DNA of 64,000 bases from Paludibacter sp. (GTDB taxonomy: Bacteria > Bacteroidota > Bacteroidia > Bacteroidales > Paludibacteraceae). The notes under the pieces are model-generated. The model was not told the origin of the DNA and did no database searches. It was given only the letters and a program-made list of their open reading frames with translations. Positions 14,901 to 28,616 of the stretch are shown in pieces. The translations under genes were made by a program, and so were the position numbers. The DNA lies in NCBI GenBank assembly GCA_028710895.1, contig JAQTTH010000010.1, forward strand, positions 62,001-126,000, read 5' to 3'. Within the stretch, counting starts at the first letter, position 1. Each line of letters opens with the position of its first letter.

Positions 14901-16310
14901 ATGAATATGAGAAAACTAATATTATATATTGGCTTATTGGCTTTCAGCATGCAAGCTTATTCGCAGGATTCGCTCATGCATTACCTGGAACTGGCAACTA
15001 AAAATAATCCGACCGTTTTGCAGCGATACAATGAATATCAGGCATCGTTGCAAAAAGTACCACAGGTGGGCAGCTTGCCCGATCCTCAGTTGGAAATGGG
15101 CGTTTTCTTAAGTCCGATGGAGTTGATTAGTGGTAATCAGGTGGCGGATATCAAGCTGATGCAAATGTTTCCGTGGTTTGGCGTTATCAAAAATGCCAAG
15201 GACGAAATGAGTCTGATGGCAAAAATGAAGTTCGAAGCCTTCAGAGATGCCAAGTTGCAGGTCTACTACGATGTGCAGCGAGCCTGGTTCGATCTGTATA
15301 AAGTCCGTCAGAATATTCGTATCTCGGAGAAGAACGTTGAACTTTTGAAAACCATTGAGCGACTAACACTGGTGAAATTTAGGTCGGGTTCTTCGGGTGG
15401 TAGTTCTGCTGTTCCCGGTGGAAATATGTCGGGTAGCAATGCTCCGGCAAGCTATGCAGGCTCTTCGGGCATGAATAGCATGGGTGGCAGTTCAGGAACT
15501 TCAACAACTTCTCGGTCTGCAACTTCATCGGGTTCATCTTCCATGGGTTCGTCTTCGGGAGCTTCCGGTTTGTCGGAAGTGTACCAGATTCAGATTGAGG
15601 AAGCGTCTTTGGAAGATAATATTGCTTCGTTGAAGAATGAAGAACGGGTTGCGGTGGCTCGTTTCAATAGTTTGCTGAACCGTTCGCAGAAAACACCTGT
15701 TGCGGCAGTTGAGCTGTTTCCAACCGCCCCATTGGATAGTGCATATTTGTCGGTTACTGATTCGATGTTTACCCGAAATCCCATGTTGGGCATGCTGACG
15801 TACGAGCAACAATCGCTTACGGCGCGTACCAAAATGCAGAAGCAAATGGGATTGCCAATGGTGGGAGTGGGGCTGAATTATTCCGTCATCAGCAAAAGCG
15901 AAATGTCTACTTCGGCTATGAATGGGCAGGATATGATAATGCCAATGCTCACGGTGAGTTTGCCTATTTACCGGAAGAAATATAAAGCCATGCAAGCAGA
16001 AATCAACTTTCTGAAAACGGCTTCGGAGCAGAATTATCAGGCAACGGTCAATGCGCTACAGTCTGAGTATTATCAGGCTTTGCAGCAATACAACGATGCC
16101 GGTCGGCGCATGAAATTGTACGATAGTCAGAATCAGTTGGCCAAAAAATCACTGGATATTTCCATTAAAACCTTTTCATCGTCGGCTTCCGGCTTAAGTG
16201 ATATTCTGCGTATTCGCCAGCAATTGCTCGACTATGAATTGAAACAGGTGGAGGCTGTGGTGGAATATAATAAGGCTGAGGCGTTGATTAAACGCTTGGC
16301 AACTCCGTAG
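14901..16310 (+). CDS. TolC family outer-membrane efflux channel
   Basis: Outer-membrane component of the tripartite metal pump. The 469-residue protein has a signal peptide (ending AYSQ near residue 21) and the two OEP domains with coiled-coil stretches (for example VYYDVQRAWFDLYKVRQN and EYYQALQQYNDAGRRMKL) and the usual SLPDPQLEMGVFLSP opening. Residues 162-223 are a low-complexity insert made almost only of Gly, Ser, Ala, Thr and Met, placed between the coiled coil of the first repeat and the next helix. No such insert is usual in CusC or TolC. The gene starts 10 bp after cusA and its stop codon lies in a hairpin repeat. Confidence 0.9.
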   Translation: MNMRKLILYIGLLAFSMQAYSQDSLMHYLELATKNNPTVLQRYNEYQASLQKVPQVGSLPDPQLEMGVFLSPMELISGNQVADIKLMQMFPWFGVIKNAKDEMSLMAKMKFEAFRDAKLQVYYDVQRAWFDLYKVRQNIRISEKNVELLKTIERLTLVKFRSGSSGGSSAVPGGNMSGSNAPASYAGSSGMNSMGGSSGTSTTSRSATSSGSSSMGSSSGASGLSEVYQIQIEEASLEDNIASLKNEERVAVARFNSLLNRSQKTPVAAVELFPTAPLDSAYLSVTDSMFTRNPMLGMLTYEQQSLTARTKMQKQMGLPMVGVGLNYSVISKSEMSTSAMNGQDMIMPMLTVSLPIYRKKYKAMQAEINFLKTASEQNYQATVNALQSEYYQALQQYNDAGRRMKLYDSQNQLAKKSLDISIKTFSSSASGLSDILRIRQQLLDYELKQVEAVVEYNKAEALIKRLATP

Positions 16311-16385
16311 GAGTTGAATGTGAATAACCCCCGGTGAAACCGGGGGATGAACAAATCAATACAAACTCAACCTAGGAGGGGTTGA
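16300..16385. repeat. Triple-hairpin intergenic repeat between the TolC-like gene and cusB
   Basis: Three hairpins in a row: caactcc/ggagttg (16300-16316), cccccggt/accggggg (16328-16346) and caacc/ggttg (16368-16384). The first overlaps the stop codon of the channel gene. The pattern resembles dispersed intergenic repeats of Bacteroidetes. The second stem lacks a T-run, so read-through into cusB is likely. Confidence 0.6.
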
Positions 16386-16401
16386 ACAATAAAAATTTAG
16401 T

Positions 16402-17643
16402 ATGAAAACAATATTTTCAAACAAATACGTCCGTTACGGACTTTTAGTTCTTGCCGGACTATTTCTGGGTTGGTTGTTTTTCCATTCGCCAAAGACGGTG
16501 AAGGACGAGCACAATCATTCGGCAACCGAAACGAAAAAGCAGATGTGGACTTGCTCCATGCATCCACAGATCAGGGTAGATCATCCGGGCAAATGTCCGA
16601 TATGTGCTATGGATCTTATTCAGGTTACTGACGGTGGTGGTGCTAAAGTCGATTCCAATGCTGTTCATTTCAGTAAAGAGGCGGCCGAACTGGCCAATGT
16701 AGCAACGTCGGTTGTCAGTCTTCAACAGCCTAGCAAGGATGTTCGACTTTATGGCAAAGTGCAGGCCGACGAACGTTTGTTGCAAAATCAAGTGGCGCAT
16801 ATTGGTGGTCGAATTGAAAAGCTGTTCGTGAACTTCACGGGTGAACCGGTTCGCAAAGGACAATTGTTGGCTATGATTTATTCGCCCGATTTGATTACGG
16901 CGCAACAGGAATTGATTGAGGCGGCTAAGACAAAACAAACGGAGCCCGAAATTTACCATGCAGCCATGGAAAAACTGATGCAATGGATGCTGACAGACCG
17001 GCAAATTGCTCAAATTGAGAAATCGGGCAAGGTGAAAACCAATTTCGAAGTTTATTCCAACACGTCGGGAATTGTAACTGCCAGACGCGTCAATACGGGC
17101 GATCATGTTTCGGAAGGAAGTGTGCTGTACGACATTGCCAACCTTTCGCATGTTTGGGTGCTGTTTGACGCTTACGAAAGTGATTTGCCTTTCCTCAAAG
17201 TGGGTAATACCATTTCATTTACGTTGCAGGCATTGCCCGGGACTAACTTTTCGGCAAAGATACAGTTTATCGATCCGTTGATTGATCCGGTGAACCGTGT
17301 TGCCAAAGTGCGTGTGGAAGTAAGCAATGCCGTTGGAAAGCTGAAACCAGAAATGTTTGCAACCGGTGTGGTAAAAGCCAATCTGAACGAGTTCAAAGAT
17401 AAACTGGTTATTCCGCGTTCGGCAGTATTGTGGACCGGCAAGCGCTCTATCGTGTATGTGAAACAACCCGGTACGGAAGATGTCAACTTTAAAATGCGCG
17501 AAATAGACCTTGGACCCATGCTCGGCAATAGCTATGTGGTACTTGGTGGTTTGACTGATGGCGAAGAAATAGTAACCGATGGTACCTTCAGCGTAGATGC
17601 CGCGGCGCAACTGGCAGGAAAGCCAAGTATGATGAATAGGTAA
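16402..17643 (+). CDS. cusB: CusB-type periplasmic adaptor with N-terminal HMBD
   Basis: Membrane-fusion protein joining the pump to the outer-membrane channel. The 413-residue protein has an N-terminal membrane anchor (about 10-28), a His-containing linker (KDEHNHSATE), and an HMBD motif at 48-75 (MWTCSMHPQI through CPICAMDL). Barrel-sandwich and alpha-hairpin regions follow (GGRIEKLFVNFTGEPVRKGQ, SPDLITAQQELIEA), then beta-barrel and membrane-proximal domains (GDHVSEGSVLYDIANLSHVW). It lies last in the set, after pump and channel, rather than first as in cus/czc operons. A strong terminator follows. Confidence 0.92.
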   Translation: MKTIFSNKYVRYGLLVLAGLFLGWLFFHSPKTVKDEHNHSATETKKQMWTCSMHPQIRVDHPGKCPICAMDLIQVTDGGGAKVDSNAVHFSKEAAELANVATSVVSLQQPSKDVRLYGKVQADERLLQNQVAHIGGRIEKLFVNFTGEPVRKGQLLAMIYSPDLITAQQELIEAAKTKQTEPEIYHAAMEKLMQWMLTDRQIAQIEKSGKVKTNFEVYSNTSGIVTARRVNTGDHVSEGSVLYDIANLSHVWVLFDAYESDLPFLKVGNTISFTLQALPGTNFSAKIQFIDPLIDPVNRVAKVRVEVSNAVGKLKPEMFATGVVKANLNEFKDKLVIPRSAVLWTGKRSIVYVKQPGTEDVNFKMREIDLGPMLGNSYVVLGGLTDGEEIVTDGTFSVDAAAQLAGKPSMMNR

Positions 17644-17699: not shown

Positions 17700-18890
17700 T
17701 TATTTCACCTTGACTGGTTCTAATGTTTTACTCCAGTTTTTCAGGTATGCAAAGAACTGATCAGCAGAAGTAAAAGTGTCTTTTTCTTCTTTCCGGGCTG
17801 CCGCGGTAAGGTAAAAGCGAAGTATTTCGCCCTTTTTATACGGCATCAGTACCAAATTGTTCAACCCCTGAACCACTTGCTTTTTGGCATAAGGAACCGG
17901 TACAAAAACACCTAAGCCCACAGTTTGCATCTCGTATTTTACAGTGTCGGTTACCGGATAATCGGTTCCCCACGATCCTACAAGCCCTTTGTTATCGGTC
18001 ATGGTAGGTCCGGCTTTTATTCCCTGTACGCCTGTAGCCAGGTTCTCAATATCTTCCGAAGCACGAACCTCGCAAACAGCATCCCTGTGACGGGCATAGA
18101 GAATGTAACGCACAGTCATATTTATTTTCTTCCCTTCATATTGCCAGCCTTCCACATCGCTTTCAACTACTGTACGAAGTTTACCGGTAGCTACAATCCG
18201 TTGCGTGCGCTTGTCGAACTTATCAATGTGAGTGGCTTTCGTTCCATTCCAGCCTTTCACAGTGCCAACACCCACTAAATCGAAAACACGCAGTGCATCA
18301 TCTCCATATCCGGCGGCAGCTTGCTCGTCGGTTGGGTACCAGCCTGTAGTTGCCAGTTCGAGCTGTTGTTTTTTCTTTCCATAAAGGTCAATGGTGCTTT
18401 TGTTATCGAAATAGATGCGGTAACCAATCAATGCTGATTCGAAAGCCACACCATGATGGTGCATTTGGTTGTACATATCGTTTTTGGTCGACGACATTTC
18501 CTGTACAAATTTAGCTTCGGCGCCTTTAGGTTTGTAAATTAGGTCGGCATAAACTTCTGTGGGGAAACTATCGCGCTTGTTGGCTTGTATCAGTTTTAAT
18601 TCAACAGGCAGTGTTTGTCCGCCTTTTAAATCAATCAGGAAAACCAGCTCATCAGCTATTCCGTCTTTATTTAGATCATCAATCTGGCTGCTGATTTGTT
18701 TTCCATTAAGTAATACGGCCAGGTTAGCACGATCTTTAGCCGGAATGGTTTTGTATTTATCCAAAACCACCACTACCGGTGCATTTTTTATACCCGTTTT
18801 ATTCGGATTGCTAACTTTGAGGTTGATTGCGGGTGAAATAAGTGTCGATAGCGCTACAAGGAGAATTGTAATGGAGAGTTTCGTTTTCAT
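17700..18890 (-). CDS. DUF4861 family exported protein
   Basis: A 396-residue protein with a signal peptide (MKTKLSITILLVALSTLISP). The mature part opens with a small beta-domain (APVVVVLDKYKTIPAKDRAN, DDLNKDGIADELVFLIDL) and continues with a segment including HHHGVAFESALIGYRIYF and TIDLYGKKKQQLELATTGWY, which I associate with DUF4861. In Bacteroidetes this family often accompanies polysaccharide-degrading enzymes, where an enzymatic role on pectin-type sugars has been suspected. No such genes are next to it here. It stands alone, converging on cusB. Family assignment is from memory and moderately sure; the function is unknown. Confidence 0.65.
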   Translation of the reverse strand: MKTKLSITILLVALSTLISPAINLKVSNPNKTGIKNAPVVVVLDKYKTIPAKDRANLAVLLNGKQISSQIDDLNKDGIADELVFLIDLKGGQTLPVELKLIQANKRDSFPTEVYADLIYKPKGAEAKFVQEMSSTKNDMYNQMHHHGVAFESALIGYRIYFDNKSTIDLYGKKKQQLELATTGWYPTDEQAAAGYGDDALRVFDLVGVGTVKGWNGTKATHIDKFDKRTQRIVATGKLRTVVESDVEGWQYEGKKINMTVRYILYARHRDAVCEVRASEDIENLATGVQGIKAGPTMTDNKGLVGSWGTDYPVTDTVKYEMQTVGLGVFVPVPYAKKQVVQGLNNLVLMPYKKGEILRFYLTAAARKEEKDTFTSADQFFAYLKNWSKTLEPVKVK

Positions 18891-19720: not shown

Positions 19721-19757
19721 AAAAAAACCGCCACAATTATGTTGTGACGGTTTTTTT
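19721..19757. terminator. Terminator of the PqqD/ATP-grasp/UT-M23 operon
   Basis: Stem of about 16 bp (left arm to 19736, right arm 19742-19757) with one pair that is a G-U on the minus-strand RNA and a mismatch on the plus strand. A- and T-runs lie at the ends. It overlaps the stop codon of the minus-strand TPR gene. Confidence 0.8.
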
Positions 19758-20376
19758 ATTTCAATTGTTTCAATCCTGAAAGTGCAGAACTATCATTAGG
19801 CCGAATTACTAAAGCCTGATAGAACAAAATCCTTGCATCCGGCGATTTTCCCAGGTTAAGCTTTGTCCAGGCAAGCATAACGATAGAATCATAATCCAAT
19901 GGGTATAAATTAACCACTTTTTCAAATAGTTTCTCGGCAGTCGTATAATTCTTTCGATTGTAATAAATTACTCCCAACCAATAATTTGCTAGCGTGTTTT
20001 GTGGGTCTATTTTTAAAATTTGAAAATATTGAGCCTTCACATTTTCCCAACTTTCAAGCGCACTTAAAGGCTTAATGCAACCAAATCTGGCCTCAATGGC
20101 ATAAGGCTTTAAACTGATAGCAATGTTGTAATATTTGATAGATTCACTGTACTGCTTAACAAGGTAATAGAGCCACCCCATTCGAATATTGACAAAGTAC
20201 CCATCCGACTTATAAACAGGTTTTAAATCGTTTATTGCAAGGATATACTTACCTGCTTGTTCTGATTCATAACTTTTTGCAAAAGCTGCTTGTTGAGCCG
20301 ACTGACTTTGTGCTATAAGTCCACTGCAGATTATACTAAACACAGCAATAAATGCGAATCGTTTTAAAGTTTCCAT
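19756..20376 (-). CDS. Exported TPR protein, last gene of the six-gene operon
   Basis: A 206-residue protein with a signal peptide (METLKRFAFIAVFSIICSGL, ending IAQS near 23). The rest is a run of tetratricopeptide repeats: helix pairs such as KYILAINDLKPVYKSDGYFV, QYSESIKYYNIAISLKPYAI, AQYFQILKIDPQNTLANYWL and KLFEKVVNLYPLDYDSIVML. TPRs are protein-protein scaffolds, so it probably assembles periplasmic or outer-membrane parts of the same system. It overlaps the preceding gene by 13 nt and shares its TPR theme, which points to translational coupling. Confidence 0.75.
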   Translation of the reverse strand: METLKRFAFIAVFSIICSGLIAQSQSAQQAAFAKSYESEQAGKYILAINDLKPVYKSDGYFVNIRMGWLYYLVKQYSESIKYYNIAISLKPYAIEARFGCIKPLSALESWENVKAQYFQILKIDPQNTLANYWLGVIYYNRKNYTTAEKLFEKVVNLYPLDYDSIVMLAWTKLNLGKSPDARILFYQALVIRPNDSSALSGLKQLK

Positions 20377-21611
20377 ATTATTCCACCTGAGAATGAATGT
20401 TGATTATAATTGGTTTGATCTTCTTTTATTAGTTTAGTATCATAAGTATAATTCCCGAATAGCGTGATTTTAGGAAGCACGTTCCAAAATAAACTTAAAC
20501 CACTCCGAAATACTGTGGGATCCAGCGAATTATAAATGTATAATCCGTTGTTATCTGAATAATTATCCAGGTTTCCAAATGTTACATTTCCTTCTACCCA
20601 TATTTTTTTGAAGAATAATGCACCTGCCGATTGATTGTAAACCAATCTATTGTTATTTTTAGAGTCAATCAGACCATAGAGTGAGCTCTTTAAATAAATT
20701 CTATTTTTACCGGGTAATGATACTCCTGCATGAATGCCATATTGCTGCGTTAGCGTGCTATCATAGTTAAACACAGAGCCACTTAAAGCAAAATCAAACC
20801 GATTGACCGTATAGGTAAGTTTTGTGCAAAACAAATTACCGGGCAAATTCATCACTGTATCAAAAACTTCTTTGTAGTTTATTGAATTTATAGCATAGGT
20901 ATTCTTAATATTTAATTTTGAGTTTACATAATGATAGCCTATGTCAAAATTCAGATGTGAAGTAATAGTCCAGTCGAGCAGGGCAAAATACTCAATTTGT
21001 CTGATTGCAGTAGAATCATTTACCTGAAGCTGCAATAATCCACTGGGTTCTTCAAAGCTTGACATATTCGTTTGAGTATAAGTCGAAAATGCCTGATACA
21101 GGTTTAGCCGATAACCTAATTGCGAATCAATTCCTCCACGTATATACGCTGGATTTCCGCGTTTACTATTGTCGTTGGATTTATAATTATATTCAAGATC
21201 CACTGAATTCAATATTCTAAACGGTTTGATTTTTAATATTTTTTTTAGCTCACTTGTAAGTTCTCCCGCATGATATCTTGTAAAGGATTCATTACCGCTA
21301 TACAACCCACAATAATATAAATAAGTTCGGGTATCAACATCTCTTTCATCAAATTTTAGTGCTCTCTCATATTGCTGTTGAGAGGAGATGTAATCACCTT
21401 TGGCAAAATATGCATAGCCTAAACGCTGACGCAGATATTTAAAATCAATACTGTCCTTAATGGCCTCTTTTGCTTTGATAATTAAGTTGTTCCAATCACC
21501 ATTCAGGTAATATTTATAGGTAATACTATCAACCTTCTGATTGTATTGTTTGTCCTGTGCATGAATGAATAATGGCACACTGAGTAAAATATAAATTATG
21601 TGTTTACGCAT
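20364..21611 (-). CDS. TPR plus outer-membrane beta-barrel protein
   Basis: A 415-residue exported protein: signal peptide (MRKHIIYILLSVPLFIHAQ), a short TPR region (about 25-115, including YAYFAKGDYISSQQQYERAL), then a long strand-rich part with alternating aromatic residues (YRLNLYQAFSTYTQTNMSSF, HLNFDIGYHYVNSKLNI, ITLFGNYTYDTKLI). It ends SFSGGIIWKL, close to a barrel-closing strand. The layout recalls YaiO-type outer-membrane proteins but I cannot confirm the family. It overlaps the UT-M23 gene by 16 nt upstream and the TPR gene by 13 nt downstream, so the three are one unit. It would place part of the system in the outer membrane. Confidence 0.65.
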   Translation of the reverse strand: MRKHIIYILLSVPLFIHAQDKQYNQKVDSITYKYYLNGDWNNLIIKAKEAIKDSIDFKYLRQRLGYAYFAKGDYISSQQQYERALKFDERDVDTRTYLYYCGLYSGNESFTRYHAGELTSELKKILKIKPFRILNSVDLEYNYKSNDNSKRGNPAYIRGGIDSQLGYRLNLYQAFSTYTQTNMSSFEEPSGLLQLQVNDSTAIRQIEYFALLDWTITSHLNFDIGYHYVNSKLNIKNTYAINSINYKEVFDTVMNLPGNLFCTKLTYTVNRFDFALSGSVFNYDSTLTQQYGIHAGVSLPGKNRIYLKSSLYGLIDSKNNNRLVYNQSAGALFFKKIWVEGNVTFGNLDNYSDNNGLYIYNSLDPTVFRSGLSLFWNVLPKITLFGNYTYDTKLIKEDQTNYNQHSFSGGIIWKL

Positions 21612-23806
21612 ATTGCAACTATTTTTACACTAGCGCTTTCATAGCAAAATTCTGAAATTGAATTTTCTTTGATAGTAAGGGTACTACTGCTTTCGTGTTG
21701 TGTTTTTCGTAAGATAGAAATGTGTATATTAGATTTTAGATGAATCATCTTGCTATCAAGCTGGTTTGTTTCCGGTTCGGTATGAATTGAATAGCCAACT
21801 CTGATGTTATTGTAAAACGGAGCTATGAAATCGTGTAACCAGATACTAATCTTCTTGTTTTTTATAATAGTAAGTGGCATTGCATCTTTCACTATAACGT
21901 TTTCGGCATTACCCAAAAACACTTTGTATGCCGATAAGTAGAAATAATATAATAATGAATTTTTGTCTCCGTAGAATGCAGTAAAATAAAACATTAAGCC
22001 ATCGTTTACGTAGTATGCACCCGACTCGGTTTCCTTACAATACAGATAATTATAGTTATAAGCATCAGTATGTGCCTCCCAATTCTCGTTTCTTTCTATT
22101 CCGTTCTTATCAGTAAATTTAAACTCAAAGATTGAATTTGGAATGATATCAAAAGCATTTTTCAATAACGAATTATCAATCACCCCACTGACCAAATCAC
22201 CTTCAACAGGTTTTGTGAACTGTATCAATTCTGTTTCGTCGGAATTTCTCTTGTGATAATAGGCGAATGGGTAATCAATTGTTTTGGAGCCTAATATCGG
22301 CATTGTTTGAACCTGAAAATGTATATGTGGTTCGGGAGAACGACCCGAATTTCCACAGTTTGCAATCAGGTCGCCACGTTTTACGTAATCTCCTTTAGAT
22401 ACTTTAAATGTGCCTTTTTTTAGGTGTGAAATTTGTGTGTAAAGTCCGGTTACATGTCTGATTATAATTGTATTTCCCCAATTATTTACAGAGTTTATTT
22501 TCCCTATTTCGTTATCGTCAATGTTGTCGAAAATTTCCTCTACAAATCCATCTGCAGGTGCCAATACAGGTTTATTGTAGCAATAGTAATCTTCGCAAAG
22601 CATTCCATTGGAGTTGTAACTTTTTGATTTGTCATCGAGTATCATGAAATCAAATGCTTTTCCCCAGTCACCCTTATGAGTATGTTCTCCGTCATGTGCC
22701 TGGCTAATAGTCCATTCGCCCCAAAATGGAAGATATAATGGAAAATACAGGAAATGATAATTACGATCTTTACTATTGTTATTGTATGTGTACAGATTTA
22801 TTTCCGGCGAATAATATTGGAACGGAGTTAATACCAGTTTGTTTGACTTACTTCTGAATTGAAGAAAATAAATAAAAAGTATAACAACTACGGAGAATGG
22901 CAGGGAGAATACGGGTAATAATATATAGCCAAGTAATTTATTGAAAAACAGCAATACAAGCGTTGTAAGCGGCACCAGCAGGATAGTCCATAAATAGGAA
23001 TAGCGTGACGGAATTGTAAAGAAACCACCAATGGCAAGAGCCACCATAATGTAGTTTGCACCTATATTGTAATATGTAATACTGGCTGAAGCTGACCCTG
23101 AAAATTGAGCAAAAACATAGGCTGACAAAAAACCAACTATGGAAAGTGAGAAGGCAATTCTCGAGCAAATAAGCAAACATAAAGCAATAAGTAATCCTGC
23201 CAATAGGTTGTCCTGAAAGAAGATAGAGCTCATTGAACGTAAGTAGATGTCTACGAGATTATGCACTGGCAAATTGTCGATGGTTTGGAAAAAGCCTAAA
23301 AGCGAATTTCCACCAAGTGAGTAAACCTCATTCATCCAGTAAATGTTCCGTTGTGTTAATCCCAGGTTCTCAAATTGGGCTGAAGGCAGCACGATAAACC
23401 AAAAGGAGAACACAAATGGAATACTAAGTACCGGAAGATTGTATTTGTTTAGCCAACCGCCTAGTGTTACAGTGAAAATCAGAGATAGCAATGCAGCCAA
23501 TGAGAGTAAACTGAAGAATACAAGGCTCGGATCGAAGAATGTCCCCATGCCAATACCAAGCAACAATGCATTGAAACTGAATAACCCCTTTTTCAACATA
23601 AACCGGTCTAAATCCATGAAATATGCAATAAGAACGGTGATTAACACTGCTATCAGGCCTGATAAACCGGCAAAAAAGTTGAAAAAAGTAACGAGCATTA
23701 TCACTGCTGCCAACAACTTGTTGTTGAAAAAGAAAATAACCGAATAACTATTCAGCACGGCAGGCAGAATAGTAGTTCGGAGAGTATTTATAGTTCTTTT
23801 CAGCAT
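21596..23806 (-). CDS. Urea transporter domain fused to M23 metallopeptidase
   Basis: A 736-residue fusion. Residues 1-317 are a urea-transporter (UT) domain with about ten membrane segments; family signatures are FFNNKLLAAVIMLVTFFN, LDRFMLKKGLFSFNALLLGI (compare the LDxxxxxxGLxGFNxxLxG pattern of UTs), and the second-half ITYYNIGANYIMVALAIGGF. Residues 365-500 are an M23/LytM-type zinc peptidase: HKGDWGKAFDF (His377, Asp386), APADGFVEEIFD, NWGNTIIIRH, YTQISHLKKG (His461), GDLIANCGNSGRSPEPHIHF (HxH at 494-496). Residues 501-736 are a strand-rich tail I do not recognise. All catalytic ligands look intact. If the UT part spans the membrane, the peptidase faces one side only, presumably the periplasm. 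No urease genes are nearby. Confidence 0.85.
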   Translation of the reverse strand: MLKRTINTLRTTILPAVLNSYSVIFFFNNKLLAAVIMLVTFFNFFAGLSGLIAVLITVLIAYFMDLDRFMLKKGLFSFNALLLGIGMGTFFDPSLVFFSLLSLAALLSLIFTVTLGGWLNKYNLPVLSIPFVFSFWFIVLPSAQFENLGLTQRNIYWMNEVYSLGGNSLLGFFQTIDNLPVHNLVDIYLRSMSSIFFQDNLLAGLLIALCLLICSRIAFSLSIVGFLSAYVFAQFSGSASASITYYNIGANYIMVALAIGGFFTIPSRYSYLWTILLVPLTTLVLLFFNKLLGYILLPVFSLPFSVVVILFIYFLQFRSKSNKLVLTPFQYYSPEINLYTYNNNSKDRNYHFLYFPLYLPFWGEWTISQAHDGEHTHKGDWGKAFDFMILDDKSKSYNSNGMLCEDYYCYNKPVLAPADGFVEEIFDNIDDNEIGKINSVNNWGNTIIIRHVTGLYTQISHLKKGTFKVSKGDYVKRGDLIANCGNSGRSPEPHIHFQVQTMPILGSKTIDYPFAYYHKRNSDETELIQFTKPVEGDLVSGVIDNSLLKNAFDIIPNSIFEFKFTDKNGIERNENWEAHTDAYNYNYLYCKETESGAYYVNDGLMFYFTAFYGDKNSLLYYFYLSAYKVFLGNAENVIVKDAMPLTIIKNKKISIWLHDFIAPFYNNIRVGYSIHTEPETNQLDSKMIHLKSNIHISILRKTQHESSSTLTIKENSISEFCYESASVKIVAICVNT

Positions 23807-23857
23807 GTGTAAGTTTTGTTGTTTGTGTATTAACCTGAATTTATTGATGGTTGTTTC

Positions 23858-25204
23858 CTACTTTAAGTGTTCGGGTACAAATTCCAATGATTCAAGGTAT
23901 TCCAGCGATTCAGCCTTCCGAATTACATGGGTATTATTTTCATTATCAATTAAAACAACATTTGGTCTCAGTGTGATAAATTGCATCCATTGGGTCATAT
24001 TGTAAGCTCCAACTTTATGAACAACAAGATGATTTCCTTTTTCGAGTGGAGGCATCGTTACGCTTTCTCGTATTACATCGATGTTCATGCAAAGTGGTCC
24101 ATAAAGCACCATTTCTTCAGTGTAATCGCCAAATGCTTGTGCCGGACTTACTTTGTGCTCGTACCAAAACGATGTAAACAGCGAGTTTATGCCGAAATCC
24201 AGAATAGTTGCTCTTCGTCCATCCGATAACCGCTTGGTTGCCAGAACTGTTCCCAATAAAAATCCGGCATCATCTATCAGTGCACGTCCTGTTTCAAGAA
24301 CTAATAATGGTAAATCCTCTTGCTTAAATCCAAAGCCAAGGATGACATCAGTAATGGCATCAGCAAATTGGTCGATTGAAGGCACGGTATCGGAACCAGG
24401 TAGATAAGCTCCTTTCAATGTGTTGGTAGATGGAAAACCACCCCCCAAATCGAGATATTGAATGGTTTTATTGAATTTTTCTTTCACGCTCCATGCCAGT
24501 TCGCAAAGGCATTTGGCTGCAATTGTATAGGCTTGTGGCGATAGCATAAACGTTCCTATATGGCAATGGAGTCCAACTAACTCCAGTTTTTCTGAGTTGA
24601 TAATGCGGGTTATGGCATTCCAGGCCTGACCATTTTCAAAATTGAATCCAAAACGATCCCATTTTGGATATATTCCTGTATCCATATTTACTCGTATGGC
24701 CACACGAGGTTTTATGTCGAATTCTTCACTAAGTCGAATGAGTGAATAGAGTTCGTCGTAGTGATCGATATGTATTAAAGAGCCGTTTTGTGCAGCCTTT
24801 ACAAGTTCAGAGTCAGTCTTAATGGGACCATTGAAGATAATTTTATTTCCGGCAACACCGTTACCTAGTGCCTTTTCATATTCAAAACCCGATACAACTT
24901 CAGCCCACGATCCTTCCTGATGAAAAATCTGACAGACAGCATTCATGTAATTGGTTTTGTATGACCAGGCAAATTGAACTTTGGGATAACGGGTTTTGAA
25001 AATTCGTGTTGCATTCTGAAAATTGCGTCTGATTTGCTTTTCCGAAATGACGAATAATGGTGATCCATAATCACTTATCAGGCTCTTTACAGATACACTT
25101 TCGATATGTGTAACAGGCTCGAACTCAGTTCGTGTTCCGAATTTATTCATAAGTCCGGTATTCATTTTCTGAATAATCGGTCGTTCATATCTTACTTTTT
25201 CCAT
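23858..25204 (-). CDS. Fold-type III PLP decarboxylase-like enzyme
   Basis: A 448-residue enzyme of the alanine-racemase/ornithine-DAP decarboxylase fold. PLP lysine is Lys83 in FAWSYKTNY. Other landmarks are HCHIG (213-217), GGGFP (254-258) for phosphate binding, LETGRAL (303-309) and GAYNMTQ near the end. The decarboxylase active-site loop reads YGPLCMNIDVI (Cys372, Asp376). Cys and Asp are kept, but the residues between them differ from both DapDC (CESGD) and ornithine decarboxylase types, so the substrate is probably neither meso-DAP nor free ornithine. Together with the ATP-grasp gene upstream it recalls the BtrJ/BtrK pair of butirosin, in which an amino acid is first ligated to a carrier and then decarboxylated. 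That comparison is inference. Confidence 0.82.
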   Translation of the reverse strand: MEKVRYERPIIQKMNTGLMNKFGTRTEFEPVTHIESVSVKSLISDYGSPLFVISEKQIRRNFQNATRIFKTRYPKVQFAWSYKTNYMNAVCQIFHQEGSWAEVVSGFEYEKALGNGVAGNKIIFNGPIKTDSELVKAAQNGSLIHIDHYDELYSLIRLSEEFDIKPRVAIRVNMDTGIYPKWDRFGFNFENGQAWNAITRIINSEKLELVGLHCHIGTFMLSPQAYTIAAKCLCELAWSVKEKFNKTIQYLDLGGGFPSTNTLKGAYLPGSDTVPSIDQFADAITDVILGFGFKQEDLPLLVLETGRALIDDAGFLLGTVLATKRLSDGRRATILDFGINSLFTSFWYEHKVSPAQAFGDYTEEMVLYGPLCMNIDVIRESVTMPPLEKGNHLVVHKVGAYNMTQWMQFITLRPNVVLIDNENNTHVIRKAESLEYLESLEFVPEHLK

Positions 25205-25236
25205 AATTCTCTTCTTTGCAATAAACGATCAACTGC

Positions 25237-26292
25237 TTATAGTTCACCTGTCCCCGAAATTTTCTGAAACTCATTGATGTCCGTTATTAAATCCCATGCA
25301 TAACGAACGAACATTTTTCCAATTTCATATTGTTTGAAAGGTTCTACTTTCTGTCCCAATGCCATTTTTACTAAAGCAACAGGTTGATTTTGACCGGCAG
25401 CAGCTGTCAAGTATATCCAGGCTGGAAACCGTGGGTTCACTTCCATAACATATGATTTTCCGTCAGCTTTTTGCATAACTTCCAGTTCGCAACCACCACG
25501 CCATTTTGTTGCACTTATAAACTTACGGGCAAGTTCTATGTATGTATCATCATCCAGTGTAATACCTGCCCAGGCCTTTCCCTTATCCGTAATATATAGT
25601 TTTCGCATTGGAACAATGCTTATAGCATTTCCATTACCATCGCCCAGAGCAGCTATGTTTATTTCAGTGCCCTGGATGAATTCCTGTACAATTATTGGTA
25701 GTCCCCATTTTGCCTGAATTTTATAGTAAGCTTTTTCTGCCTCTTCAAGCGTGTTTGTTATGATTGCATCATAGAATTTTCCTTTCACAACCAACGGATA
25801 TTCAAATTCATCAGCTGCTTTAGCCAGATCTTTTATATTGTGAATAATTTTATCTTTTGGCATTAATAAACCATGTCGTTTACCAAAATCAAATAATTTC
25901 ACTTTGTCACGAGCCTCAAATTGCGATAGCTCCGGTAAAAAAGTATGAATACCTATATTGTTGAGCTTGTCCTTTAATTTGATAAAATTGAAAAGTTCAG
26001 CATCAAAATTTGGAATTATCAGATCCAAATGTTCAATTTCATGTATATGTACCAATCGGGCAAATAAGCTGTCGGTTCCGCTTGATGGATAGGGTATTTG
26101 ATATGTTTTATCAACAAGGTCGTGCATGTAAATACCCGGCTCGAGTGATTCGTATGATAGACCAATAATTCGCACTTCAAAGTCCTGACACTCCCGGATG
26201 GCACGTATTACTGCCACCCCTGGTCCGGGACTGTCAATTGCATTTAAAGCCGTAACAGCAATAACAATTTTTCTATTATTGATTTTGGTCAT
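25237..26292 (-). CDS. ATP-grasp ligase (carbamoyl-phosphate-synthase-like)
   Basis: A 351-residue ATP-grasp enzyme. The N-terminal pre-ATP-grasp domain runs about 1-120. The ATP-grasp core has the adenine/phosphate lysine in YPLVVKGKFYDA (Lys170, Lys172), the IVQEFIQGTEINIAALGD segment (201-218) and the metal-binding MEVNPRFPAWI (Glu284, Asn286). Enzymes of this group activate a carboxylate as acyl-phosphate and join it to an amine or thiol. The start codon overlaps the stop of the PqqD-like gene by one base (TAATG), so the two are translationally coupled. The substrate is unknown. A peptide or amino-acid ligase acting with the PqqD-like partner is the simplest reading. Confidence 0.85.
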   Translation of the reverse strand: MTKINNRKIVIAVTALNAIDSPGPGVAVIRAIRECQDFEVRIIGLSYESLEPGIYMHDLVDKTYQIPYPSSGTDSLFARLVHIHEIEHLDLIIPNFDAELFNFIKLKDKLNNIGIHTFLPELSQFEARDKVKLFDFGKRHGLLMPKDKIIHNIKDLAKAADEFEYPLVVKGKFYDAIITNTLEEAEKAYYKIQAKWGLPIIVQEFIQGTEINIAALGDGNGNAISIVPMRKLYITDKGKAWAGITLDDDTYIELARKFISATKWRGGCELEVMQKADGKSYVMEVNPRFPAWIYLTAAAGQNQPVALVKMALGQKVEPFKQYEIGKMFVRYAWDLITDINEFQKISGTGEL

Positions 26293-26564
26293 TATTTTGG
26301 GGTATCTTTTTCCAAATCAAGTATACTAAAATCTTTCAGTTGCGATACAAAATCATCTAAATCCTTTTCAAATTGAATCTCATTCACCTCGTATTTGACA
26401 CAAATGGCTTTTATGATAGCTGGAAATGATTTCTCTTCCTTTAGCAGGGTCAGAATATCAGCTCCTATGGGATTTGTTGAGAATGAATCTCCCGTAGTCG
26501 GATTAAAAATAAATCCCTCTTCACTTGTTGCTATATTTTTTCTGAGCTTCATTTTAATTGTCAT
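26292..26564 (-). CDS. PqqD-like (RRE-type) small protein
   Basis: A 90-residue protein with the winged-helix-like PqqD layout: an N-terminal strand pair (GFIFNPTTGDSFSTNPIGAD), then helices (ILTLLKEEKSFPAIIKAICV) and an acidic helix with the usual FEKDLDDFVSQL. PqqD domains bind leader peptides for RiPP-modifying enzymes. Here no radical-SAM enzyme is encoded nearby and the partner is an ATP-grasp ligase. The sequence has no DSL-type phosphopantetheine site, so it is not an acyl carrier. A second ATG at 26552 (MKLRKN) may be the real start if the promoter box 8 bp upstream of the first ATG is right. First gene of the six-gene operon. Confidence 0.75.
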   Translation of the reverse strand: MTIKMKLRKNIATSEEGFIFNPTTGDSFSTNPIGADILTLLKEEKSFPAIIKAICVKYEVNEIQFEKDLDDFVSQLKDFSILDLEKDTPK

Positions 26565-26571
26565 TATTTAT

Positions 26572-26603
26572 CAAAGGTATAAAATGAATAGGTAATATGC
26601 AAT
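26572..26603 (-). promoter_or_regulatory. Putative promoter of the PqqD/ATP-grasp/UT-M23 operon
   Basis: Minus-strand -7 box TACCTTTG at 26572-26579 and ATTG (near TTTG) at 26600-26603, spacer 20. The start of transcription would fall at the first ATG of the PqqD-like gene, so the message would be near-leaderless or begin translation at 26552. Confidence 0.45.
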
Positions 26604-26671: not shown

Positions 26672-27391
26672 TTAAACTAAAAAAGTTTTTTCAATAAATG
26701 CCTGGAAAGTCTCTTTGTATTGATCGCCAATTGGTATATAGGTTTTCTGATCAAAAACAATCCGATTGCGGTCAATCACCTTTACACGATCCAGGTTCAC
26801 GATAAACGAACGGTGAACGCGCATAAATTTATCTTTTGGTAACTGCTCTTCAATCACTTTCAATCGGATAAGTGTCGAAACCGGTTCATCATTAATCAAA
26901 TGAATATGAATGTATTCATTGGCGCTTTCTATGTATTTTATTTCGGATAATAGAATACGCACCAATTTATATTCCGATTTTACAAAGAGTGAATCCTGAG
27001 TACTTTCGAGTGTTTCAGCTGGTCGTTCGTTTAATTCGAACCAGGTTTTCGCTTTGTTGGCTGCTTTCAAAAAACCATTATAACTGATAGGTTTCAGAAT
27101 ATAATCAATTGCATCTACCTGAAATCCTTCGATGGCATATTCGCTGTATGCAGTGGTGAATATTACCTGTGGTTTTTGTGCCAATGATTTTACAAAGTCT
27201 ATTCCGTTTATATCAGGCATATTAATGTCGACAAACATTAAATCAACCTCATTGCCGGCCAGATAGTCCATTGCTTCGTAAGCACTTTGGCATAAAGCTA
27301 CAGATTCCAAAAAAGGTGTTTTCTCAATATATGAGCTAATTTGCTCTAATGCAAGCGGCTCATCGTCAATTGCAATACATTTTATTTTCAT
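26672..27391 (-). CDS. LytTR-type response regulator
   Basis: A 239-residue regulator with an N-terminal receiver domain (acidic pocket IDDEP at 8-12, phosphoacceptor Asp55 in FVDINMPDING, conserved Thr and Lys in TTAYS and ILKPISYNGF). A C-terminal LytTR DNA-binding domain covers about 135-239 (EIKYIESANEYIHIHL, FMRVHRSFIVNLDRV, YIPIGDQYKE). LytTR domains bind paired imperfect direct repeats. It follows the sensor kinase gene by 58 bp and lies 107 bp upstream of the PqqD-like gene on the same strand, so that operon is the obvious candidate target, though not proven. Confidence 0.92.
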   Translation of the reverse strand: MKIKCIAIDDEPLALEQISSYIEKTPFLESVALCQSAYEAMDYLAGNEVDLMFVDINMPDINGIDFVKSLAQKPQVIFTTAYSEYAIEGFQVDAIDYILKPISYNGFLKAANKAKTWFELNERPAETLESTQDSLFVKSEYKLVRILLSEIKYIESANEYIHIHLINDEPVSTLIRLKVIEEQLPKDKFMRVHRSFIVNLDRVKVIDRNRIVFDQKTYIPIGDQYKETFQAFIEKTFLV

Positions 27392-27449: not shown

Positions 27450-28616
27450 TTACTTTTGGGAAATACCTGAATTCAAGTTTGTTTCATAAATAGGAATTGT
27501 GAGATATACTTCAAATTCCGTATCATTTTCTTTGATATCCAGTGTATAGTCCTTCGTAAATAGTAGCTCCAGACTTTTTCTGATATTGGTCAGGCCAATG
27601 CCGGAATAACTTTTGTCAAATTTTTCTTTATTCTTATGTTTACTATTCTTGATGATACATTTTAGCTGTTTTTCATCTAACTCCAGTTTAAACAGTACAA
27701 ATGATTCTGCCTGATAACTTACCCCATGTTTAAAAGCATTTTCAACAAATGAAATAAAAAGCATGGGGGGGATCTGAATATCCGGAATTTTACCTGGTAT
27801 GTCGAGCGAGATTTTTACTTTTTTTGAAAACCTCAATTGCATAAGTGTAATATAACTTTCAATAAACTCAACTTCTTTCTTCAAGCTTGTTTGGCCCTGC
27901 GCAGTGTCGTAAAGCAAATAGCGCATGAGGGTAGACAGTCGAATAACTGCATCCTTGGCCGTTTCAGTATTTATATCAATCAGAGCATGAATGTTGTTAA
28001 GTGTATTCATGAAAAAGTGAGGACTTACCTGATGACGAAGTAAAGCAAGTTCCGTTTTAAGTTGTTCTTTTTCAACATCTTTTCGTCTGTCTTCTTCGTT
28101 CAGCCACTGCGACAATAATTTGATAGTTGTACCCGCAGCCACAACCAATAATGCGATGATTAAATCTTCAGCAAAAATCATGTAAATTGATTTCTCCTCG
28201 GTAGGTGTTGGTGCCCTGTAACCCATAGGAGCAGGCATTTTCGAACCTAGCTCCATGGGTGGCATTCCCGGTCCAAGTTCCATTTTGGGCATGGAGATAG
28301 GTTCGTTGGGAGTTAGATAGAATTGCGTACTGATGCTTAGACCCACAACCAATAACAAGGCCAGAACTGTCGTGATGCTGTATGAAAGATATTTTTTCTG
28401 AAATAAAAGTTTTGGAACAAAAATAAATGCATTGAGAGTAAAAATGATGCAAAATGCAGACATTCTTATCCATTCCATACTCACAGCTCTCCAATCAACT
28501 GTGTTGATTTGCCTGTGCTGAAAGAACGGAACTGAAAATATGGCAAACCAGATTACGATATATGTAATTGATTCAAGGTGTTTTATACTGAATGTTTTTT
28601 TTTGTACGTATTGCAT
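27450..28616 (-). CDS. LytS-type sensor histidine kinase with Met-rich loop
   Basis: A 388-residue kinase with four predicted membrane segments (about 17-32, 50-68, 79-98, 147-165) and a His_kinase domain: phosphoacceptor His200 in LLRHQVSPHFFMNTLNN, and the ATP-binding motifs PPMLFISFVENAFKHGV and YSGIGLTNIRKSLEL. Between segments three and four, residues 103-133 form an extracytoplasmic loop with six methionines in proline-rich spacing (SMPKMELGPGMPPMELGSKM). Such loops can bind Cu(I). Bacteroidetes kinases of this type lack an obvious sensor domain otherwise. It is paired with the LytTR regulator just downstream. Confidence 0.9.
   Translation of the reverse strand: MQYVQKKTFSIKHLESITYIVIWFAIFSVPFFQHRQINTVDWRAVSMEWIRMSAFCIIFTLNAFIFVPKLLFQKKYLSYSITTVLALLLVVGLSISTQFYLTPNEPISMPKMELGPGMPPMELGSKMPAPMGYRAPTPTEEKSIYMIFAEDLIIALLVVAAGTTIKLLSQWLNEEDRRKDVEKEQLKTELALLRHQVSPHFFMNTLNNIHALIDINTETAKDAVIRLSTLMRYLLYDTAQGQTSLKKEVEFIESYITLMQLRFSKKVKISLDIPGKIPDIQIPPMLFISFVENAFKHGVSYQAESFVLFKLELDEKQLKCIIKNSKHKNKEKFDKSYSGIGLTNIRKSLELLFTKDYTLDIKENDTEFEVYLTIPIYETNLNSGISQK

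Follow-up and report, generated by a model that had tools for sequence, protein, structure and literature searches.

The window analysed here, a stretch of 64,000 nucleotides (nt) from Paludibacter sp. (contig JAQTTH010000010.1, positions 62,001 to 126,000), carries on its minus strand six neighbouring genes, A to F, encoding a PqqD-like protein (A), an ATP-grasp ligase (B), a fold-III pyridoxal phosphate (PLP) decarboxylase (C), a channel of urea-transporter (UT) fold joined to an M23 zinc peptidase (D) and two tetratricopeptide repeat (TPR) proteins (E and F). These genes form a conserved operon whose distribution across Bacteroidota supports the view that they act as one functional unit. 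Our tentative reading, to which we assign a probability of about 0.38, is that the operon serves the synthesis and export of a small molecule of amine or amide type. Under this model the PqqD-like protein A would present an acceptor and guide B, B would conjugate an amino acid to that acceptor, C would remove the carboxyl group of the conjugated amino acid, and the M23 domain, predicted to lie on the cytoplasmic side of D, would release the product at the inner opening of the altered urea channel; the product would then leave through D and, aided by F, through the predicted outer-membrane barrel E.

Co-occurrence and layout of the operon

We searched 296 genomes drawn evenly from Bacteroidota. 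Genes B (E-value 1e-20) and C (E-value 1e-45) were each detected in 27 of them, these being the identical 27 genomes, and together with D were confined to that set, lying adjacent, on one strand and in the same order in 27/27. B and C were separated by no more than 268 nt and C and D by no more than 172 nt, apart from 345 nt in genome G005 and 690 nt in G124, where the gap holds an open reading frame (ORF) of 159 amino acids (aa). The UT family as a whole occurred in 36 of the 296 genomes, 27 times with and nine times without an M23 domain, two of the latter nine (G109 and G218) being fragments. Regions were mapped from 34 of the 35 other UT genomes, leaving out G218 (a sub-threshold fragment), and the M23 zinc motifs were present in D at all 27 operon loci. 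A relaxed search recovered A in 26 of the 27 operon genomes, A stood upstream of B in 51 loci, and F adjoined D or E in 24 of the 27. A second sample of 395 genomes from the window's class, which overlaps the first, yielded B in 77 genomes and C in 77, with 76 common to both. The proposal of the initial annotation that the six genes are one functional unit therefore withstood the co-occurrence check.

Beyond these samples, a search with D matched 3,137 proteins (E-value 1e-10), with both domains present in all 120 among the matches listed, and a distant D query returned named fusions in Nitrospinota, Myxococcota, Leptospira ognonensis and Hymenobacter. A tblastn search of a plasmid collection gave distant relatives only (27 records for B and 278 for C, all below 60% identity), and four plasmid neighbourhoods contained no annotated ATP-grasp/decarboxylase pair, unnamed proteins there having been left unscanned.

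Some loci departed from the common layout. The D gene of G005 (locus L069, 7911-10165) is broken at a run of T, giving two overlapping frames that encode a channel of 358 aa and an M23 part of 393 aa; an indel could account for this as well as a natural split could, and we did not use it as evidence. Contig C1 of G124 carries B and C at both ends with equal scores, probably because a circular assembly overlaps itself there. In L048 (3363-4916) and L049 (8282-9835) an OmpA-like protein of 517 aa, bearing repeated motifs of calcium type (by eye), is inserted between C and D.

Within the window, the layout agreed with what had first been described, all six genes lying on the minus strand with spacings of -16 to +51 nt between promoter-like and terminator-like sites. 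A candidate Bacteroidota-type promoter, TTG-N20-TACCTTTG, is found at 26572-26602 (minus strand), and the same motif occurred 5' of A in 8 of 51 loci, versus 0.41 expected. An intrinsic-terminator-like hairpin with a T tail (16 pairs, five of them G-C, loop of 5) lies 3' of F at 19721-19757 on the same strand. We infer that A to F are transcribed as one transcript.

The ligase, the decarboxylase and the PqqD-like protein

Gene B (25237-26292) encodes an ATP-grasp ligase (Pfam ATPgrasp_Ter and ATP-grasp_3 above cut-off) whose motifs KGkfYdA, E.NPRfPAW and GqN.P are conserved in 51 orthologues. Gene C (23858-25204) encodes a PLP decarboxylase of the alanine-racemase fold (Pfam, 103.3 and 46.7 bits), whose best solved relative was the N-citrylornithine decarboxylase FigC (7kh2), with 216 bits versus 139 for the best diaminopimelate decarboxylase (DAPDC). 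Against NCBIfam it scored 231 bits for FslC (cut-off 500) and 214.7 bits for lysA (cut-off 297.9), both below cut-off. PMC7857480 puts FigC, SbnH, AcsE, MccE and BtrK, all of which act on amino acids in conjugated form, into a clade shared with DAPDCs and D-ODC, and describes FigC as having a Met where DAPDC and others carry an acidic residue and as lacking the Arg of the DAPDC specificity helix. We compared these positions in 15 of 53 full-length orthologues of C, and all 15 had the FigC-type Met after the catalytic Cys, had lost the DAPDC Arg and carried a FigC-like two-residue deletion, the DAPDC sequence CES being replaced by CM(N/Q)ID and MRPAMY by (F/Y)(T/N/S)xFW(Y/F). The residues with which DAPDC (LysA) holds the distal end of diaminopimelate (DAP), namely the specificity-helix Arg and the acidic residue after Cys, are thus both missing from C, which by its sequence has the marks of a FigC-like decarboxylase of conjugated amino acids. 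B and C are naturally read as carrying out ligation and decarboxylation in the cytoplasm, as first suggested.

C resembles the FigC/FslC subfamily in its Cys-Met loop, its lack of the distal Arg of DAPDC and its shortened specificity helix, whereas the operon differs from FigC/FslC systems in having no NRPS-independent siderophore (NIS) synthetase and no major facilitator superfamily (MFS) exporter among its six genes. No IucA/IucC-type synthetase was found among the six genes and the neighbouring DUF4861, LytTR and His_kinase genes. A citryl conjugate, as in rhizoferrin, is an unlikely substrate, because the FigC residues R387 and H357, which are modelled citrate contacts in PMC7857480, correspond to Q405 and I375 in C.

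The butirosin pathway, in which BtrJ is the ATP-grasp ligase and BtrI the carrier protein, provides a second parallel, since in BtrJ/BtrK/BtrI an ATP-grasp ligase likewise stands beside a fold-III decarboxylase of the same clade. BtrK decarboxylates glutamate bound to a carrier protein (PMC7857480). The operon differs in having no acyl carrier protein, its gene A being PqqD-like with an unconserved C-terminus.

Gene A (26292-26564, with a probable true start at 26552) encodes a stand-alone protein of the PqqD family (Pfam PqqD, 43.1 bits versus 23.4), of RRE type. Its C-terminus varied in both length and sequence among 39 orthologues, which disfavours a LysW-type amino-group carrier, and we rejected that role. 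The 108-nt gap upstream of A contains a single ORF of 22 aa that overlaps the start of A.

A role of A as a true RRE would point to the modification of a peptide or protein, an alternative that we consider unlikely. A would then recruit a substrate encoded elsewhere, B and C would modify it and the cytoplasmic M23 domain would trim it, with the channel in a secondary role; the partner in some genomes would be protein T, a small secreted protein tailed for the type IX secretion system (T9SS) and encoded beside A. Like PqqD/RRE pathways, the operon has a stand-alone PqqD-family protein heading a set of tailoring genes and a metallopeptidase in the set; unlike them, it has neither a precursor peptide nor a radical SAM enzyme among its six genes, and its peptidase is of the M23 family and membrane-bound. 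T lies directly upstream of A in eight operon genomes (for example L082, 4332-5171, and L088, 4450-5328, with six similar loci) and elsewhere in a ninth (G124). A profile built from seven operon neighbours matched 9 of the 296 genomes, all of them operon genomes and two of them outside the query profile; because the profile came from operon neighbours, the linkage of T to the operon is partly by construction, which does not apply to the two other genomes or to its absence from the 269 operon-free genomes. The nine genomes fall in two families (f17 and f35) and, by reading of their sequences, appear Ignavibacteria-like.

A broader comparison used the T9SS sorting domain TIGR04183, which was present in 9 of 37 genes directly upstream of A versus at most 8 of 109 control genes. 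The upstream set came from 47 loci after excluding nine genes on the opposite strand and the window itself; the controls were 109 of 118 genes drawn from 283 (those above 900 aa being skipped), after dropping four barrels that lie downstream and five genes that interrupt the operon or stand immediately ahead of it as insertions. Set against this association, T was not found in 18 of the 27 operon genomes, modification of a secreted T9SS protein would have to precede its export, and the operon encodes no precursor peptide, although one may be encoded elsewhere in the genome. The related profile A5 had no match in the window's genome, which says little. In L040 (5326-6126), L053 (3704-4504) and L057 (3555-4358), A and B are separated by a protein of 266-267 aa whose tail looks T9SS-like by eye, and L040 and L053 have further genes between B and C; comparison of T with this insert by hhalign gave a probability of 52%, which is suggestive only.

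The kinship of C with DAPDCs bears on another alternative, the editing of peptidoglycan fragments in the cytoplasm, which we judge improbable. Here M23 would open imported cross-linked muropeptides, C would decarboxylate the D-centre of peptide-held DAP to give lysine peptides, and B would re-ligate or extend them. M23 enzymes of Gram-negative bacteria typically cleave D-Ala-meso-DAP (mDAP) bonds, C is related to the DAPDC clade, and its lack of the residues holding the free L-end of DAP would be expected if that end lies in a peptide; however, the six genes include neither a muropeptide importer nor a peptidoglycan-synthesis family, and the altered urea channel, the PqqD protein and the TPR barrel would be left without a role.

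The channel-peptidase fusion, the TPR proteins and flanking genes

Gene D (21596-23806) encodes a UT-fold channel (residues ~1-350), an M23 domain (~351-517) and a C-terminal beta region (~514-736). The UT fold was recovered by structure comparison and Pfam PF03253 scored above cut-off. The C-terminal region (residues 514-736, window positions 21596-22267) is well predicted and beta-rich, and structural alignment barely reaches past residue 531.

We examined topology and selectivity filter in 104 sequences obtained by clustering at 72% 239 of 240 listed proteins, one shorter than 650 aa being excluded. Filter positions follow dvUT (Q24, E187, T130 and T294, taken from PMC4357013), and the window's D has V23, S194, S128 and S301 there. 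Among the 104 relatives, the E187 position was Ala, Ser or Gly in 98, the T130 position was Ser in 101 and the T294 position was Ser or Ala in 88; Q24 was kept in 58 and changed in 46. For comparison we used seven of the nine stand-alone UTs, excluding G109 (internal stop) and G218, and Q24, E/Q187, T130 and T294 were kept in 7/7. Because most filter changes go to smaller side chains, the slot may be wider than in a urea channel. The loss of polar filter residues, with the Q24 position changed in 46 of 104, could also fit a UT part that is non-conducting and only serves the M23 and beta domains as a trimeric membrane scaffold or sensor; but the hydrophobic slot positions F80, L84 and F190 were mostly retained, as was the first LPxxSxPF motif (the second less strictly), and a pure scaffold would need none of these, so that we rate this alternative as distinctly improbable.

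The M23 domain is predicted to lie on the cytoplasmic side. From the charges of the internal loops alone, 102 of 104 relatives are predicted to have their C-terminus, and with it the M23 domain, in the cytoplasm, the charge sign being the same in dvUT and in 7/7 stand-alone channels, and the window's D has no hydrophobic stretch of helix length after its channel part. The N- and C-termini of the UT fold lie on one side, and the loop between the UT halves is on the periplasmic side (PMC4357013). Fold and zinc/catalytic residues are intact, D386, H461, H494 and H496 being present in 239/239 aligned proteins and H377 invariant in the 104-row alignment; since the zinc site is conserved, the peptidase is probably active.

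The initial annotation had the M23 domain acting on peptidoglycan or a peptide outside, and a cytoplasmic product or its precursor passing through the UT channel. All M23 proteins known to us act outside the cytoplasm and the zinc site of D is intact, both of which would suit a periplasmic domain, but the placement of both UT termini on one side, the strong positive-inside signal, its shared sign in dvUT and the seven stand-alone UTs, and the periplasmic inter-half loop reported in PMC4357013 all argue the other way, and we find this version quite improbable. The usual location of the M23 family is extracytoplasmic, and D departs from it by prediction, differing from LytM, DipM, ShyA, lysostaphin and other M23/LytM peptidases in a predicted cytoplasmic domain carried on a channel. 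A review of peptidoglycan hydrolases that covers M23 (PMC9662197) does not mention "urea" in its available part.

As for D as an ordinary urea transporter serving nitrogen supply, the UT fold named at the outset and the Pfam score stand, but we rejected plain urea uptake as highly improbable, given the changed E187 and T130 positions (98/104 and 101/104 relatives) and the lack of any UreC, UreG or UreD match in the 27 operon loci, whereas urease genes adjoin five of the seven stand-alone UTs (UreC in L064, L065, L070 and L096; UreD in L066). In its fusion to M23, the replaced filter positions and the urease-free loci, D differs from the UT channels dvUT and UT-B (SLC14), and the source labels "urea transporter" and "murein DD-endopeptidase" for D-type proteins look misleading.

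Gene E (20364-21611) has a signal-peptide-like N-terminus followed by TPR helices, and its structure model is a TPR-bearing barrel of 14 strands, in agreement with the TPR outer-membrane barrel proposed earlier; from this model E is predicted to reside in the outer membrane. Gene F (19756-20376) encodes a TPR protein (TPR_2, 51.6 bits, above cut-off) with a signal-peptide-like N-terminus and is probably secreted to the periplasm. An E-family barrel stood directly after D in 12 of the 27 operon genomes (shorter in two, at 280-283 aa), a barrel of 272-309 aa followed F in 10 of the 27, and one more was weakly similar (L077). Profile comparison shows that these two types of barrel are related (hhalign probability 93%, pairwise E-value 2.7e-7). 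The exporters BcsC, PgaA and PelB also join TPR to an outer-membrane barrel, but E has 14 predicted strands, its barrel is most like those of CymA, FadL and OmpG, and a family scan found no polysaccharide synthase among the six genes.

Directly upstream of A, on the minus strand, are a LytTR response regulator (26672-27391; Pfam Response_reg 78.4 bits, LytTR 73 bits) and its partner histidine kinase (27450-28616; His_kinase 82.7 bits). A LytTR-type gene was the nearest gene upstream of A in 11 of 47 loci, so the pair may be a regulator of the operon at some of the loci. On the downstream side, the same strand carries a DUF4861 protein (17700-18890; 311.6 bits) that matched the polysaccharide-utilization family BT_3233 below cut-off only. 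Beyond it, a plus-strand gene pair at 14901-17643 resembles, by eye, an efflux protein of the outer membrane and an adaptor for metal efflux that has the metal-binding motif CSMHP.

Weighing the proposed pathway

The reading that we prefer, synthesis and export of a small amine- or amide-type molecule, keeps the functional unit, the cytoplasmic chemistry of B and C and the TPR barrel of the initial interpretation and drops the extracytoplasmic action of M23. Its most novel form casts D as a product-release export channel, a UT fold with a wider slot whose cytoplasmic-face peptidase would free the conjugated, decarboxylated molecule from a carrier or peptide, the molecule then leaving through that same protein, and we consider this form doubtful.

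Several observations weigh against the proposed pathway. The window operon, with gaps of at most 51 nt, encodes no precursor peptide or carrier protein. Q24 is retained in 58 relatives of D, the window's D being among those that have lost it; any UT pore may be too narrow for products larger than urea; five of the 104 relatives have a hydrophobic stretch after residue 335; and an orientation of M23 towards the pore goes beyond what a single AlphaFold2 monomer of D can show. The identity of C to FigC (28-34%) is no higher than to an archaeal DAPDC (29-34%), so that its assignment to the subfamily depends on scores and diagnostic residues. The relaxed search did not recover A in G255, F is not beside D in 3 of the 27 operon genomes, and, since the genome searches score only some first-look candidates per genome, the absences (269 of 296 genomes) are not absolute. 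The order of the steps is a guess.

We also compared the six proteins with known anti-phage defence systems using PADLOC (E-value 0.01), which returned 0 families for 6/6 proteins, and rejected such a role. No description of the gene set was found among the open-access papers listed (titles and starts of abstracts), and we know of no system that combines these families. Each part comes from a known family, the novelty lying in the combination and in the predicted cytoplasmic peptidase on a channel, which would make D a protein of a new kind.

The operon is widespread, occurring in 27 of 296 Bacteroidota genomes and, by gene C, in 77 of 395 genomes of the class, with its core inherited as a block. 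Should the model prove right, a whole pathway leading to an unknown small molecule could be tested directly, and the urea-uptake and peptidoglycan-hydrolase labels on many proteins need correcting. If true, D would be the first M23 peptidase with a cytoplasmic site of action and the first UT channel through which a biosynthetic product is exported.

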